From Leucobacter sp. Ag1 (GTDB lineage: Bacteria; Actinomycetota; Actinomycetes; Actinomycetales; Microbacteriaceae): 64,000 nucleotides of DNA. Positions within the stretch are counted from its first letter, which is position 1. The number at the start of each line of letters is the position of its first letter. Made by a program: the position numbers and the translations under genes. The DNA lies in assembly GCF_000980875.1 (NCBI RefSeq), contig NZ_LAYO01000110.1, positions 62,001-126,000 on the forward strand. The letters are read 5' to 3'. The notes beneath the pieces were generated by a model, which was not told the origin of the DNA, ran no database searches, and saw nothing but the letters and a program-made list of their open reading frames with translations. Positions 33,665 through 42,314 of the stretch are shown here, piece after piece.

Positions 33665-35755
<2,091 letters not shown>

Positions 35756-35797
35756 GCGTTCGAGGCTACTCCGTACCACTGACATCGAGGCCCTGGA

Positions 35798-35803
35798 TAC
35801 ACT
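35798..35803 (+). promoter_or_regulatory. -10-like element for the SARP gene, leaderless type
   Basis: TACACT with 7 nt to the ATG at 35811. There is no Shine-Dalgarno site in the 30 nt upstream. A CTGACA hexamer at 35779-35784 is too close (13 bp) to serve as a normal -35. Confidence 0.45.
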
Positions 35804-35810
35804 CGACCCC

Positions 35811-38800
35811 ATGCGTTCCGAGTCTCCCCGTCTCGCGGTGCTCGGTCCCGTTCGACTCGACGGCCGGGATCCCGGCGGCCCGATGATCCGGGCGCTCCTC
35901 GTCGCCCTCGCCCTCGAACCGGGCGGCGCTCCCCGTTCGGTCGATGCGCTCTCCGCCGATATCTGGGGCGACGACCTCCCGCACAATCCGAAGGCATCGC
36001 TGCAGAGCCTCGTCTCCCGAGCACGAGCCGCCGGCGACGGCGGCATCATCACGACCCTCCCGGGCGGATACGCCCTCGAGCGTTCCTGGAGCGACGGCGC
36101 GCGGAGAATCCCCGGGGCGCGCAGCGATCTCGACCTCGCCCGCGATGTCGTGGAGCACCCGGACGGCGGCGGCCGCAGCGTCCGCGATCCGGCCGACCGG
36201 GTGCGGGCCCTCGACGCGGCACTGATGCTCTGGACCGGGGAACCCGGCCATGACCTCGCCGACTCCCCCGTCGCGGAGGACCTCCGGGTCGCAGCCGCCC
36301 GTCTGCACGACCGTCTGCGCACCGAACGGGCGCGAGCGCTCGCGACGACCGGGCGAACCGACGACCTCGACGCGGCAGCGCGCGAGCTCCGCGCGCTGCT
36401 CCCGGAGCACCCGCTCGACGAGCAGCGGCACGTCGAACTCATGGAACTGCTCGTCCGCGCCGGACGCGCCGCCGACGCGCTCGCGGTCCACGCGGAGTTC
36501 CGCACGCGTCTCCGCGACGAGCTCGGCGCTTCGCCGAGCACCGCGATCACCGAGCTCAATGCCCGGATCCTGCGCGGCGAGGGTGGACCCGACGCGCCTC
36601 GCGACCGTCCCGGAAACGCCTCCGCCGAAGCCGCGAGCGGCGCGGCGGGCGGCACCGCCCGCAGGGATCCCATCAGGATCGGGCTCCCCGTCGCCCTGAG
36701 CCCGCTCATCGGCCGCGACTCCGATATCGACGAGACCTCCGCGCTGCTCCGCGCCCACCGGCTCGTCACCGTCCTCGGGGCCGGCGGCCTCGGCAAGACC
36801 CGCCTCGCCGCAGCCGTCGCCACGGCCTCCGACGCTCCGTCCGTCGTCTTCGTGCCGCTCGCGGGCGCACGCGAATCCGCGGACGTGCTCCCCGCCATCG
36901 GCGGAGCGCTCGGCATCAGCGAGACCACCACGAGCACGCGGCTCGCCGACGCCCGCACGCAACCGGACCTCCGCCAGCGCGTGCTCTCCGCACTCGGCGA
37001 ACGCGACACCCTGCTCGTCCTCGACAACTGCGAGCAGATCGTCTCGGGCGTCGCGTCGTGGGCGGCCGACGCGCTCGCCACGGTGCCCGGTCTGCGGATC
37101 CTCACGACGAGCCGCACTCCGCTCGCGCTCGCATCCGAGGTCTGCCGTCCCCTCGACCCGCTCGCCTACGACGAGGTCACCGGATCCGCGGTCCGGCTCT
37201 TCGTCGAGCGCGCCCGGGCCGTCAGACCGGGCGCGGATCTCCCGCTCGACGTCGTCGCCCGCCTCTGCGCGCGCCTCGACGGCCTCCCGCTCGCGATCGA
37301 GCTCGCGGCCGCGCGGATCAGGACCATGAGCCCGGCGCAGATCGAGGCCCGGCTCGAGGATCGCTTCGCGCTGCTCACCGTCGGGGACCGCGCGGCACCC
37401 GAGCGGCACCGGACCCTCCAGGCCGTGATCGAGTGGAGCTGGGAGCTGCTCGAACCCGTCGACCGCCGTGCTCTGGCGATGCTCTCAGTGCTGCCGGGCG
37501 GCCTCTCGCTCGAGACCGCGATCGGCGTCCTGCGCTCCGGTGGCGTGTGCGCGAGCGAGACCGAGGTCGACGAGGTCCTCGACCGGCTCGTCTCGCAATC
37601 GCTGCTCGTGGTGTTCGAGGACGCGGGATCCGGCACGATCCGCTTCCGCATGCTCGAGACGGTCCGCGAGTTCGGCCTCGCCCGGCTCCGGCTCGACGGT
37701 GTCGAGGACGCGGCCTGGGACGCGGTGCTCGGCTGGGGGCGCGGTTTCGCGGACGCACGATCCCCGGGGATCTTCGCGCTGCCCGGATCGCTCGGAGCCC
37801 CGGCCTACCGGGTGATCCGGGCCGAGCAGGACAACCTGCTCGCGGCCCTGCGCCGCGCGGTACGCGACGACCGCCGCCGGGAGGCGGTGCTGCTGCTCGG
37901 CGTGCTGGCGCAATCCTGGACGGTTCGCGGCGCGTTCACCGAGTTCACCCGCACCGCGTCCGAGGTCTTCGACGTCATCGCGCGCGCCGCACGCCGGACG
38001 GACGGCGCCGATGTCCCGGGCGACGCGCTCGCGCTCTGCCTGGCCACCTGCGCGGTCGGCCTCGGCAGCACCGATCCCGGCCGCGCCGTTCGCGCCATCG
38101 CGCTCCTGCGCCGGCTGTGCCGCCGCGATCCCGCGCTGAGCCCGCTGTGGCAGGGCGTCTCGCACATGCTCGAATCCGGGCTCGATGCCGACGCCACCCG
38201 CACCGAGCTCGAGACGCTGCGGGCCGGCCCGGACGCCGACGCCCGACTCTTCGCCGAGATGCTCGTCGCGCAGCTCGCGGAGAACGACGGCGATCCGGAG
38301 ACCGCGCGCATCGCCGCCGAGCGCACCTGGCGGCTCGCGACGGCCGATGACGAACCGTGGATCGCGGCCATGGCCGCCCACTCGCTCGCGCAGCTCGCCA
38401 GCCAGTCCGCCCGGCCGGCCGAGGCGCTGCACTGGCTCGACATCGGCACCGCCGGGTTCGAGGACTTCGGGGCCGAGGACGAGATGGGCGAGCGCGGTTG
38501 GCTCCGCGGCCTCGCGCTGATCTCGCTCGGACGCGCGGACGAGGCCGAGGCGATGTTCCGAGACCTCACCGGCGCGGTCGATCGCACCGACGACGGCATG
38601 GGCCTCGCATCGATCGGCTGGTTCGGCGTCGCCGAGATCGAGCGGTCCCGCGGACGGTTCGGCGACGCGATCGTGAGCTTCGGCCGTGCCATCTCCGAGT
38701 TCCGCGAGAACGATCAGCGCGCATCCCCCTGGTACCTGATCGCGCTGGCGGGCTACGTCTCGGCCGCCTGCATCGACGGCTCCCTCCCGTCCACCGAGCA

Positions 38801-39167
38801 GGCCCGGCTCGCCGCGAAGCTGCGCTCCCGGACCATCGCGGTGCAGCGGCTCCTCGTGCTGCAGCGCTTGCGCTCCGTCTACGTCGATCGCCCGGTGCTC
38901 GGCACCGCGCTCACCGGTTGGTCGTCCTGGGCCATCGGGATCCCCGAGTTGCGGGAGCGCGGCCTCGAAGCGCTCGCCCTCGCCGAGCTGCTGGGCGCGC
39001 GCCAGGATCAGCCCTGCCTCGCGCTCGAACTGCACCGCGCGCGTGCCGCACGCCTCGTCGGAGCCGATGCGGTCGAGCGGGCGCGCGGCCGGGCGCGCGC
39101 GCTGAGCACGGACGAACGGGTGCCCCGAGCATTCACCGTGCTCGGGGCACCCGTCCCGTCGGTCTGA
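35811..39167 (+). CDS. SARP/BTAD-domain regulator with NTPase and TPR-like regions (AfsR-type)
   Basis: 1118 residues. Domains in order: winged-helix DNA-binding domain (residues ~5-95, with [20 protein letters not shown] and [13 protein letters not shown]), bacterial transcriptional activation (BTAD) domain (~100-265, ending [20 protein letters not shown]), NB-ARC/STAND ATPase (~295-560, Walker [13 protein letters not shown], Walker [11 protein letters not shown], then [10 protein letters not shown] and [13 protein letters not shown]), and a long alpha-helical, TPR-like C-terminal half. AfsR-type SARPs activate secondary-metabolite or transport genes by binding heptamer direct repeats (known). 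Such repeats occur before the neighbouring drrA gene. The final coding bases contain a strong hairpin. Convergent with drrB. Confidence 0.92.
39118..39152 (+). terminator. hairpin inside the 3' end of the SARP gene
   Basis: GGGTGCCCCGAGC at 39118-39130 and its exact complement at 39140-39152, loop 9 nt. A 13-bp stem within the last 17 codons. It is followed by an imperfect second hairpin (GGATCCCGG-AATG-CCGGATCC, 39171-39191) between the convergent stops. Confidence 0.5.
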
Positions 39168-39195: not shown

Positions 39196-40020
39196 TCAGG
39201 CTTTGCGCATGTAGGCCCTCACCGTCAGCGGGGCGAAGATCACGACGATCACCGCGGCTCCCAGCAGCGACACCCAGAGGTCCGCACCGACCGTGCCGGA
39301 GTTCGCGAGGTCGCGCACCGCGGTGACGAGGTGCGACACCGGGTTGATGTCGGCGAACCAGCGCAGCCAGTCGGGCAGGGTGTTCGCCGGTACGAAGGCG
39401 TTCGACAGGAACGTCAGCGGGAACAGGATCAGCATCGAGATGCCCTGCACGCTCGACGCGGTGCGGGCGATCACACCGAAGAAGGCGAAGATCCAGCTGA
39501 TCGCCCACGAGCAGGCGATCACGAGCAGACCGGCGAGCACGACCCCGCCGAGGCCGCCGCCGGGCCGGTAGCCCATGAGAAAGCCGACGAAGAAGGTCAT
39601 GGTCGTGGCGATCGTGTAGCGGACCGTATCCGCGAGCAGCGCCCCCGAGAGCGGGGCGATGCGCGCGATCGGGAGCGAGCGGAACCGGTCGAACACGCCC
39701 TTGTCCATGTCCTCGCGCAGCTGGGTGCCGGTGACGACCGAACCCGTGATCACGGTCTGCACCAGGATCCCGGGGATCAGCAGCGGCAGGTACTTCTGCA
39801 CGTCGCCGGAGATCGCACCGCCGAAGATGTACGCGAACATCAGCGTGAAGATGATCGGCTGGACCGTGACGTCGACGAGCTGCTCCGGCGTGCGGCGGAT
39901 CTTGACGAGCCCGCGGTAGGCCATCGTGAACGTGTTCGCGATGGACTGGCTCAGGCTGGTGTGGTTCTTGAGATCCCGCTCGGCGGCGGGGACGATGCGT
40001 TCGAGGGTGGCGGTGCTCAT
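39196..40020 (-). CDS. ABC-2 type permease, DrrB-like
   Basis: 274 residues, six transmembrane helices in the ABC-2 arrangement typical of DrrB daunorubicin-resistance permeases. Visible: RGLVKIRRTPEQLVDVTVQP (residues ~36-55), GILVQTVITGSVVTGTQLRE, DMDKGVFDRFRSLPIARIAP, and ILFPLTFLSNAFVPANTLPD (~residues 198-217), the NxFVP motif of the subfamily. Pairs with the ATPase encoded upstream (ATGA overlap). Exports an unknown hydrophobic compound or lipid. Confidence 0.92.
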   Translation of the reverse strand: MSTATLERIVPAAERDLKNHTSLSQSIANTFTMAYRGLVKIRRTPEQLVDVTVQPIIFTLMFAYIFGGAISGDVQKYLPLLIPGILVQTVITGSVVTGTQLREDMDKGVFDRFRSLPIARIAPLSGALLADTVRYTIATTMTFFVGFLMGYRPGGGLGGVVLAGLLVIACSWAISWIFAFFGVIARTASSVQGISMLILFPLTFLSNAFVPANTLPDWLRWFADINPVSHLVTAVRDLANSGTVGADLWVSLLGAAVIVVIFAPLTVRAYMRKA

Positions 40021-41036
40021 GCTCGGACCTCCTGGAGTTCGGCGGCGGCCGATTCCGCCTGGTCGGCGGCATCGTGCCCGGTGATGGCGAGGAAGACCTC
40101 GTCGAGGGTCGGCTTCTGCACGCTCATCTCGACGAGGGGGATCCCCTCCTCGCGAAGGGTGATCAGCAGATCGGCGACGCGGTCCGCGTCGGCCATGGGT
40201 GCGGTGAGGCGGGATCCTTCAGGCGACGGTGCCGCGGTGACGCCGAGCACCCGCTGGATCGCGCGTGCGGCGGTCTCCAGGTCGGATCCGAGCACGGCTC
40301 CCCCGTCGCGTCCGCCGATGCGCAGCTGCAGCGATGAGGTACCAACCGAGCTCTTCAGCTCGTCCGGCGTGCCCTCGGCGACGACACGGCCGCGGTCGAT
40401 CACGGCGATGCGGTCGGCCAGCTGATCGGCCTCATCGAGGTACTGCGTCGTGAGCAGCACGGTCGATCCGGTCGCGACGAGCTCGCGGATCGTGTCCCAC
40501 ATCTGCCCACGGGTGCGGGGGTCGAGGCCGGTGGTGGGTTCGTCGAGGAAGATGAGCGGCGGCTGCGCGATGAGCGAGGCCGCGAGATCGAGCCGGCGGC
40601 GCATGCCGCCCGAGAACTTCTTCAGGGGGCGCTTCGCCGCCTCGGTCAGGCCGAAGCGCTCGAGCAGGTCGACGGCCTTCGCTCGGGCTTCGATCCGCGA
40701 GAGGCCGAGCAGGCGTCCGAAGATGATCAGGTTCTCGGTGGCCGACAGCGTCTCGTCGACCGACGCGTACTGGCCGGTCACGCCGATCAGCTGCCGCACG
40801 ACCTGCGGCTCGCGGACGACGTCGTGTCCGAATACCCGGGCGCTGCCGCCGTCGGGACGGAGCAGCGTCGCGAGCATGCTGATGGTGGTGGTCTTGCCTG
40901 CGCCGTTCGGGCCGAGCACGCCGTAGATGGATCCCGCGGCCACGCGGAGGTCGACGCCGTCGACCGCCCGGTTGTCGCCGAACACCTTGACGAGCCCATC
41001 GGCCTCGACGGCCCATTCGTTCAGTAGTGATGTCAT
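40017..41036 (-). CDS. ABC transporter ATPase, DrrA-like
   Basis: 339 residues. Walker A GPNGAGKTTTISMLATLLRP (~residues 41-60), Q-loop GVTGQYASVDETLSATENL, signature FSGGMRRRLDLAASL, Walker [22 protein letters not shown]-loop TQYLDEADQLADR, and the DrrA-type C-terminal domain ending QKPTLDEVFLAITGHDA. The ATG at 41034-41036 has no Shine-Dalgarno site; a GAGGCT hexamer lies 6 nt upstream, and three heptamer repeats lie behind that. Forms a two-gene operon with the permease. Confidence 0.94.
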   Translation of the reverse strand: MTSLLNEWAVEADGLVKVFGDNRAVDGVDLRVAAGSIYGVLGPNGAGKTTTISMLATLLRPDGGSARVFGHDVVREPQVVRQLIGVTGQYASVDETLSATENLIIFGRLLGLSRIEARAKAVDLLERFGLTEAAKRPLKKFSGGMRRRLDLAASLIAQPPLIFLDEPTTGLDPRTRGQMWDTIRELVATGSTVLLTTQYLDEADQLADRIAVIDRGRVVAEGTPDELKSSVGTSSLQLRIGGRDGGAVLGSDLETAARAIQRVLGVTAAPSPEGSRLTAPMADADRVADLLITLREEGIPLVEMSVQKPTLDEVFLAITGHDAADQAESAAAELQEVRA

Positions 41037-41042
41037 GCGGCA

Positions 41043-41085
41043 AGCCTCGCGGGGGCCGCTGTCACCGCGCTGTCGCGCCGCTGTC
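41043..41085 (-). promoter_or_regulatory. SARP-type operator: three heptamer repeats and -10 of drrA
   Basis: Minus-strand heptamer GACAGCG occurs three times (41085-41079, 41074-41068, 41063-41057), exactly 11 bp apart. The last copy ends 8 bp before GAGGCT (41048-41043), which is 6 nt before the drrA ATG. Direct heptamers with 4-bp spacers, the last one 8 bp from the -10, is the published geometry of SARP binding sites. The SARP gene is 1.9 kb away, behind the same operon. Confidence 0.65.
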
Positions 41086-41189: not shown

Positions 41190-42314
41190 ATGACGTCGAT
41201 CGCCTCGCGTCTCGGACGCACCCCGCTGCTCGTGCTCGTCCTGCTGCTCGCCGCGTGCTCCGGCGCGCCCGCCGATCCGCCGCCCACGTCCTCCGCATCG
41301 GGATCCGGAGTGCTGCCGAGCGAAGATCGTCTGCGGGCCGCGCTCGAGTCCGCACTGGCGGGTTCGGGCGTGCCCGGCGGCGCGGTCGTCGTCACCGATG
41401 CCGACGGCGGCTCGGCGACCGCGGTCTTCGGCGAACGCGCCCCCGGTGAACCGGTGACGGCGGACACGCGCTTCGCCTACCGGAGCATCACCAAGTCGTT
41501 CGTGGGCACGGTGATCCTGCAGCTCGCCGACGAGAAGCGGCTGTCGCTCGACGATCCGGTGTCGAAGTACGTCGCCGGGGTCCCGAACGGCGACCGGATC
41601 ACCATCGCCGAGCTCGGCGACATGCGGTCCGGGCTCGCGAACTACTCGGCGCAACCCGGCCTCGGCGCGATGCTCAGCAAGGATCCGGCCCGCGACCCGA
41701 AGACCTCGGAGCTGCTCGCGCTCTCCTACGCCGTGAAGCCCGTCGCGCCCGGCACCGCCTACGAGTACTCGAACACGAACACCCTGCTGCTCGGCGAGGT
41801 GATCCGGAAGGTCACCGGGGACGATTGGGCCACGGCCGTCGATCAGCGTCTGCTGCGCCCGCTGAAGCTGGAGAGCGTGCGCACCGGTTTCGTCGCGGGG
41901 AGCGAGAACGCGGCGGGATTCCAGCTCGCCGACGGCAAGATCGTCGAGCAGCTGCCCGTGGTCGCACCCGGGTGGTTCGGAGCGGCGGGCGCGCTCACCG
42001 GCAACGCCGCCGACCTCGCCACCTGGGGACGGTCGCTGGGTTCGGGGTCGCTCGTCTCGCAGGACGCCCAGCGGTGGCGCCTGGAGCAGTTCGGCTCGAC
42101 CGCGGACGACCCGGCGAGCCCGCTCTACGACGACTACGGCTTCGCGATGGGCCGCATCTCGGACTGGATCGGCCACACCGGCACAGGACTGGGCTTCCAG
42201 GGCCTCGTCATGTACGACCCCGCGACGCAGCACGTCATCGCGGTGCTGATCAACGGCACCGGCGAGAACCCGGATCTCCCCGTCACCGTGTTCCAGGCGG
42301 TGCGGAAGCTCTAG
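41190..42314 (+). CDS. serine hydrolase lipoprotein (class C beta-lactamase / DD-peptidase fold)
   Basis: 374 residues. Lipoprotein signal peptide with lipobox LLAAC, Cys23 the lipidated residue. Penicillin-binding-type active site: Ser99-x-x-Lys102 (YRSITKSF), Tyr193-Ser-Asn195 (YEYSNTN) and His329-Thr-Gly (WIGHTGTG). The family includes beta-lactamases, D-alanyl-D-alanine carboxypeptidases and esterases, and sequence alone does not decide between them. Anchored outside the membrane and next to ddl and alr, a DD-peptidase role in cell-wall remodelling fits (inference). The 153-bp gap upstream also holds the drrA operator. Confidence 0.88.
   Translation: MTSIASRLGRTPLLVLVLLLAACSGAPADPPPTSSASGSGVLPSEDRLRAALESALAGSGVPGGAVVVTDADGGSATAVFGERAPGEPVTADTRFAYRSITKSFVGTVILQLADEKRLSLDDPVSKYVAGVPNGDRITIAELGDMRSGLANYSAQPGLGAMLSKDPARDPKTSELLALSYAVKPVAPGTAYEYSNTNTLLLGEVIRKVTGDDWATAVDQRLLRPLKLESVRTGFVAGSENAAGFQLADGKIVEQLPVVAPGWFGAAGALTGNAADLATWGRSLGSGSLVSQDAQRWRLEQFGSTADDPASPLYDDYGFAMGRISDWIGHTGTGLGFQGLVMYDPATQHVIAVLINGTGENPDLPVTVFQAVRKL

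Follow-up and report, generated by a model that had tools for sequence, protein, structure and literature searches.

A putative SARP-dependent promoter-operator in front of drrA in Leucobacter sp. Ag1

Described SARP operators and the drrA locus

The role described for SARPs is to activate antibiotic biosynthesis (PMC10936776), and the published geometry of their operators comprises direct repeats in 11-bp steps with the 3' repeat 8 bp from the -10 element (PMC10936776, PMC4393881), a distance given as a common SARP feature (PMC4393881). In the AfsR-afs box-afsS system of Streptomyces coelicolor, as described in PMC10936776, a large SARP with NOD/STAND and TPR parts acts at two direct repeats of 11-bp period, the 3' repeat lying 8 bp from a weak -10 element, CACTGT. 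The AfsR structure reported there places sigma R4 on two SARP protomers and not in the -35 groove; the NOD and TPR parts inhibit the SARP domain until ATP binds, and it is called elusive whether an inducer exists for the AfsR sensor (PMC10936776). SARP operators with triple heptamers are also already known (PMC5930380, PMC10972967). PimR, a SARP-LAL acting on pimM in Streptomyces natalensis, has an operator of three heptamers with 4-bp spacers, at which at least two protomers are needed and three give the full effect; its heptamer reads CGGCAAG, its target is a regulator gene and its binding site lies upstream of the -35 and not over it (PMC5930380), so SARPs do not all share one activation geometry. 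OtcR of the oxytetracycline cluster, a SARP made of a DNA-binding domain and BTAD and shown to activate biosynthesis genes, has repeats 11 bp apart and is encoded beside the resistance pump gene otrB (PMC4393881). Closest in target is DnrI, a small SARP of daunorubicin biosynthesis (PMC5930380), which according to the title of Prija et al. 2017 (cited in PMC10972967) binds drrAB in Streptomyces peucetius.

The window, meaning the whole 64,000-nucleotide stretch of DNA that was analysed, holds a drrA gene (40017-41036, minus strand) for the ATPase subunit of a daunorubicin-resistance-type ABC exporter (TIGR01188, 365.3 bits, above the cut-off of 312.45). It overlaps by 4 bp a drrB-like permease gene (39196-40020, minus strand), the product of which matches PF01061 (ABC2_membrane) above cut-off and falls below the cut-off of TIGR01247 drrB (69.1 vs 223.05). 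Unlike the small DnrI, the SARP of this locus is a large STAND-TPR protein of 1118 residues, encoded convergently with drrBA at 35811-39167 on the plus strand. The locus adjoins uvrB and cell-wall genes, and divergent from drrA lies a gene for a beta-lactamase-family serine hydrolase (41190-42314, plus strand), for which no match was found in the fetched stretches of 40 relatives.

Profile matches and an AlphaFold model agree on the architecture of the SARP. An OmpR-type DNA-binding domain is followed by BTAD (PF03704, 84 bits, cut-off 22.1), and the NTPase part, of STAND/NB-ARC type, matches AAA_22 above its cut-off and NB-ARC, AAA_16 and nSTAND1 below theirs; the motif GxGGLGKT is invariant across 13 SARP orthologues. 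The model was built from 11 sequences (mean pLDDT 82.9, pTM 0.55), and with such a pTM the relative placement of the domains is uncertain. Residues 4-261 resemble the SARP domain of AfsR (8k60_J, Z 21.0, rmsd 3.4, 243 residues aligned, 35% identity), and residues of about 280-685 resemble CED-4 (2a5y_C, Z 16.3, rmsd 11.3, 311 aligned) and Apaf-1 (1z6t_B, Z 16.3, rmsd 12.0, 323 aligned). Residues of about 737-1095 align with Rap (8rsv_B, Z 23.2, rmsd 5.2, 327 aligned) and with the TPR superhelix of MalT domain III (1hz4, Z 18.2, rmsd 5.0, 334 aligned), which suggests that this part is a TPR-like solenoid and a candidate sensor, although the Pfam table lists no TPR family for the protein. Overall similarity to AfsR is low, the score against the NCBIfam AfsR equivalog (NF053617) being 115.3 bits against a cut-off of 1430. 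The fold of residues 4-261 and the base-contacting Arg92 are shared with AfsR (PMC10936776); the operator differs in having three repeats where the afs box has two, in its heptamer, and in lying before an exporter gene and not afsS (PMC10936776).

Read on the minus strand from 41085 to 41034, the region in front of drrA is GACAGCG-gcgc-GACAGCG-cggt-GACAGCG-gcccccgc-GAGGCT-tgccgc-ATG. Re-reading of the sequence bore out the preliminary description of 41043-41085 as three copies of GACAGCG with a period of 11 bp, 8 bp from GAGGCT, itself 6 nt from the drrA start. The upstream, middle and promoter-proximal heptamers occupy 41079-41085, 41068-41074 and 41057-41063, the gap 41049-41056, the -10 element (xAnnnT) 41043-41048 and the drrA ATG 41034-41036, all on the minus strand. 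When the 154-bp intergenic region was shuffled 5000 times with its dinucleotides preserved, three 7-mers with all seven columns equal at period 11 never arose, and the same seven-column identity at any period from 8 to 20 arose in 1 of 1500. Scored with a matrix built from relatives outside the window's genus, the operator reaches 36.5 bits, while the runner-up on both strands of the 64 kb reaches 3.6. The array is not a chance occurrence.

Occurrence of the array with and without the SARP gene

The SARP query matched 87 of 199 genomes of the window's family at E up to 0.001, many of them in the NTPase part only, and the 40 top-ranking loci other than the window were retrieved. In 39 of these 40, the SARP gene is accompanied by drrA and drrB on one stretch, usually adjacent and convergent; some have genes in between, and in one (L074) the genes run in the same direction. 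The fortieth (L048) stops at a contig edge, and its genome carries drrA with the array on another contig (L110). One of the 39, cut inside drrA (L057), was fetched again (L121).

An EM alignment of the window and 38 drrA upstream regions, started from the window site, gave one site in each, with the consensus GTnAGCG three times at 11 bp, followed by an 8-bp stretch of free sequence and (C/G/A)AnnnT. All 39 promoters share G1, A4 and G5 in the third heptamer and G1 in the second, and likewise the A and T in the -10 element; A4 of the second is kept in 38/39, and G1 and A4 of the first in 38/39 and 36/39, respectively. The first heptamer is poor in four loci (L061, L062, L064 and L065). The gap keeps its length with a free sequence, all eight columns carrying 0.05-0.53 bits. 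In leave-one-out scoring, 39/39 promoters stood above all 200 of their dinucleotide shuffles. The strict window motif, ACAGCG three times, reached P<0.05 in just 10 of 38 relatives, failing widely because the family consensus is GTnAGCG, and was dropped for EM alignment and leave-one-out scoring.

A wider search of 398 family genomes, the first 199 included, found a SARP orthologue in 86 at E up to 1e-75. The 47 promoters held out from the matrix (45 from new genomes, together with L110 and L121) all carry an array above 200 shuffles of their own upstream DNA (47/47) and xAnnnT at the fixed place (47/47); the lowest scores 17.3, near the top shuffled score of any locus, 15.5. Where the SARP gene and drrAB are both present, conservation of the heptamers and of the 8-bp distance had been named beforehand as the check on direct control, and it holds throughout, with an array at this distance upstream of drrA in 86 of 86 SARP-positive family genomes. 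A covariance model (R1) alone, run under stricter filters, places a site within 12 kb of the SARP gene at E up to 0.005 in at least 78 of the 86; for the other 8, one of which has drrA on a separate contig, inspection of the retrieved DNA gave the answer. Not counted among the 86 is L116 (G009:C1:360321-374351), where the SARP is matched in pieces, drrA is just 48% identical, and GACAGCG is present three times with the -10 element off register, perhaps a decaying module.

Orthologues of drrA (E up to 1e-120) occur in 45 of the 199 genomes, namely all 41 with a SARP orthologue and 4 without. In none of these four SARP-less genomes (G018, G032, G099 and G127) does the drrA upstream region carry the array (0/4, scores -5.9 to -23.0); G099 and G127 have weak SARP matches (E about 1e-12 to 1e-11) away from drrA. 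By eye, in three SARP-less loci without the array (L137, L138 and L140), drrA closely follows a gene ending in a GTVPRAL-type motif and is probably under different control.

The module also recurs outside the family. A search at order level matched the SARP in 20 of 396 genomes with E up to 1e-90; 13 of these belong to other families, and every one of the 13 has SARP gene, drrA, drrB and array. At class level R1 matched 11 genomes beyond the family; among the 7 fetched the whole module is present only in L227, one (L229) has a SARP-like stretch with no drrA, and the other five have neither a SARP nor a close drrA, L231 encoding an ABC ATPase of 33% identity. The 14 arrays from outside the family (13 order-level and L227) all exceed 200 shuffles. 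Among 80 named loci from Leifsonia, Curtobacterium, Rhodococcus, Nocardia, Streptomyces, Actinomadura and others, drrA came with sufficient DNA ahead of it in 48, and with the family matrix 36 of these beat their shuffles and 12 fail to do so. In a consensus-free test of the named loci, mean self-identity at period 11 was 14.1/21 against 7.5 in shuffles and 7.0-7.8 at periods 9, 10, 12 and 13; the 8-bp gap was not singled out by this measure, self-identity of at least 15 occurring in 31 loci at gap 9 and 28 at gap 10, vs 26 at gap 8. The heptamers there are often rewritten (GAAACCG, GTCGGTG, GCAAGGG), so the sequences suggest a module that recurs in other families with changed heptamers and an unchanged period.

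These results bear on whether the repeats could be a functionless remnant, compositional or inherited, as the GTCAGCG-like triplets that GC-rich DNA does give, probably by chance (e.g. L113, L120, L245), might lead one to think. A remnant would not be expected to keep its heptamers and xAnnnT on either side of a spacer with constant length and free sequence, to beat dinucleotide shuffles, or to appear in distant genera with rewritten heptamers at the same period, and we give this explanation almost no weight.

Heptamer sequence and the SARP recognition helix

In AfsR, as described, R92 contacts T-38 and T-27, and T88 contacts base pairs -36 and -25 (PMC10936776). If the -10 element is placed at -12 to -7, the 8-bp gap would put heptamer position 1 on -27 and position 3 on -25, a register that we infer. 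The equivalent of Arg92 is Arg in 85/85 SARPs, while that of Thr88 is T in 70, A in 7, S in 5 (the window included) and M in 3; one locus (L073), where the SARP lacks its N-terminus, was left out. An A stands at position 3 in 104 of 210 heptamers paired with Thr88 and in 0 of 45 paired with S, A or M, counts that are not independent, as each promoter contributes three heptamers. Met goes with G at position 3 (9/9), Ala with C (19/21) and Ser with C (13/15). Permutation of labels within genera gave P 0.0001 for residue 88 against position 3, a residue picked after the alignment was seen, though for its known contact; the three genera that mix Thr and non-Thr (g79, g17 and g12) all go in the same direction. 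In a free scan, uncorrected for ancestry, the columns of AfsR residue 50 (against position 3) and 85 (against position 2) had z above that of residue 88, presumably through shared ancestry.

Similar pairings appear outside the family, where Ala88 goes with T at position 2 (29/30) and C at position 3 (26/30), and Val88 with A at both (20/21 and 20/21). This tally covers 32 loci, the 80 named ones less 31 with no drrA within reach, 10 with no array above the cut-off, 4 with no readable helix, 1 with too little upstream DNA and 2 of the same family. Ser88 together with GAC-type heptamers recurs in two order-level families, f16 (L222-L226), where the outer two heptamers are of GAC type, and f9 (L215 and L216). 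Taken together, the comparison supports a covariation in which the operator sequence would track the SARP recognition helix at a residue that contacts bases in AfsR.

This covariation also bears on the identity of the regulator. PhoP boxes are 11-bp repeats, and another winged-helix regulator, a response regulator of PhoP, MtrA or OmpR type, might bind the array with the SARP as a mere neighbour. OmpR does share the DNA-binding architecture of SARPs and binds cooperatively as monomers (PMC5930380). Yet the array follows the SARP gene, present in 86/86 genomes with it and before 0/4 drrA orthologues without it, and a near-ubiquitous response regulator would not be expected to leave a heptamer that varies with the recognition residue of the SARP. 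Nor would such a regulator be expected to have a single site above chance in the window genome, where the best operator site has E 1.3e-6 in a sequence-only covariance model and the second 0.106. We consider control by a response regulator very unlikely. The only BTAD protein at E up to 0.001 (PF03704) in the window genome (111 contigs, 99.91% complete) is the SARP encoded at 35811-39167. It is therefore highly probable that 41043-41085 is a SARP-dependent promoter-operator for drrA, activated by the product of 35811-39167, and the suggestion in the preliminary description that this SARP directly controls the exporter is supported by the sequence comparisons.

Proposed activation, further sites and possible signal

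By eye, the drrA promoter of the window has no -35 hexamer at 17-18-bp spacing, and it therefore looks activator-dependent. A SARP of AfsR architecture would occupy the three heptamers as adjacent protomers, each taking one turn of the helix, and the proximal protomer, 8 bp from the -10 element (CACTGT at afsS, mostly CAnnnT or GAnnnT here; PMC10936776), would replace the missing -35 contact and bring in RNA polymerase in the way described for AfsR at afsS. The SARP is probably kept inactive by its STAND NTPase and TPR-like solenoid until a signal and ATP are bound, the signal being most plausibly a compound exported by DrrAB. We infer binding by the SARP, activation over repression, control by a ligand and the nature of that ligand.

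Exporters are often controlled by repressors, and the SARP might instead sit on the array as a repressor released by the drug, in the manner of TetR-type exporter repressors. A SARP with a negative effect, Atr32, has been described (PMC10972967). Against this, a site 8 bp from the -10 element and over the -35 region has the geometry of an activating SARP, and the missing -35 hexamer gives the promoter the look of one that depends on an activator; repression appears very unlikely, and activation remains the reading we prefer.

The 6 nt between -10 element and ATG in the window imply a leaderless drrA mRNA, with a transcript that would begin at or near the ATG. The first in-frame start lies 6-9 nt past the -10 element in 13 of 85 promoters from five genera, the window among them, 16-107 nt past it in 59 and 1 nt past it in 7, where the true start probably lies elsewhere; 6 were unresolved. 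Seven nt ahead of the SARP ATG (in the region 35798-35813) stands a TACACT without a heptamer array, so the SARP mRNA, too, may be leaderless. In a check for autoregulation, the plus strand ahead of the SARP start (35701-35830) held no array (best score -26.6). The array before drrA might conceivably act on the divergent hydrolase gene at 41190 as well.

Besides the known operators, extra R1 sites with E up to 1e-4 numbered 8 in the 86 SARP-positive genomes, one being the drrA of G194 itself, vs 2 in 312 others; the counts were 10 vs 7 at 1e-3 and 17 vs 28 at 5e-3, so weak matches are mostly chance. Scored with the full matrix, the 16 non-drrA sites in SARP-positive genomes fall into 8 above 27 bits and 8 at 25.2 or less, and the best of 9 examined among the 28 SARP-negative sites (all 7 with E up to 1e-3 included) scores 22.9. 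Overlap with open frames fails to separate SARP-positive from SARP-negative sites. The eight high-scoring sites (L105, L106, L107, L108, L109, L111, L112 and L234) precede genes for two SDRs, an alpha/beta hydrolase, an MFS pump, an anthrone-oxygenase-like protein and FAD monooxygenases, two of these being FAD_binding_3 by scan and a third (L234) by its sequence; L109 lacks xAnnnT at 8 bp. The fetched stretches L105-L109, L111 and L112 hold no SARP match at E up to 1e-10. The preliminary description had called regulator and exporter a local module, which stands for the window genome with its one site above chance level, and does not extend to the relatives that carry further sites.

The best NCBIfam model of the MFS pump is Tet(43), at 757 bits below its cut-off of 999. 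One monooxygenase fits Tet(X) best (170 bits, below the cut-off of 750), and another scores 189 as a tetracycline destructase (cut-off 550), behind PRK07588 at 269. The extra targets suggest a detoxification regulon in some relatives and hint at tetracyclic polyketides as the signal of the SARP. A wider reading, possible though on balance doubtful, would make large SARP and DrrAB an actinobacteria-wide, drug-inducible defence module outside biosynthetic clusters, in which the solenoid senses an aromatic or tetracyclic polyketide and the SARP responds by turning on export, joined in some genomes by modifying enzymes, the added targets being FAD monooxygenases that resemble Tet(X)/tetracycline destructase, SDRs and a pump that resembles Tet(43); heptamer positions 2-3 would co-evolve with residue 88 as a readable code.

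A literature search of titles and abstract starts recognised no report of a large SARP controlling drrAB outside a cluster, and as far as this search reaches four things are new, namely the pairing of a large SARP and DrrAB in a module outside clusters, how widely that module occurs, the covariation and the further targets. Since the module has one clear target, a predicted exporter, the inducer question becomes directly testable, the inducer being expected among the substrates of the exporter. The covariation offers a recognition code for SARPs that can be checked and would help to predict their targets in silent clusters.

Some arrays are longer than three heptamers. Upstream of drrA, L054:3999-4041 and L152 have arrays of 8 and 6 heptamers in 11-bp steps, and by eye L041 and L044 have further upstream heptamers with 3-bp spacers beside 4-bp ones, resembling the secondary PimR operator.
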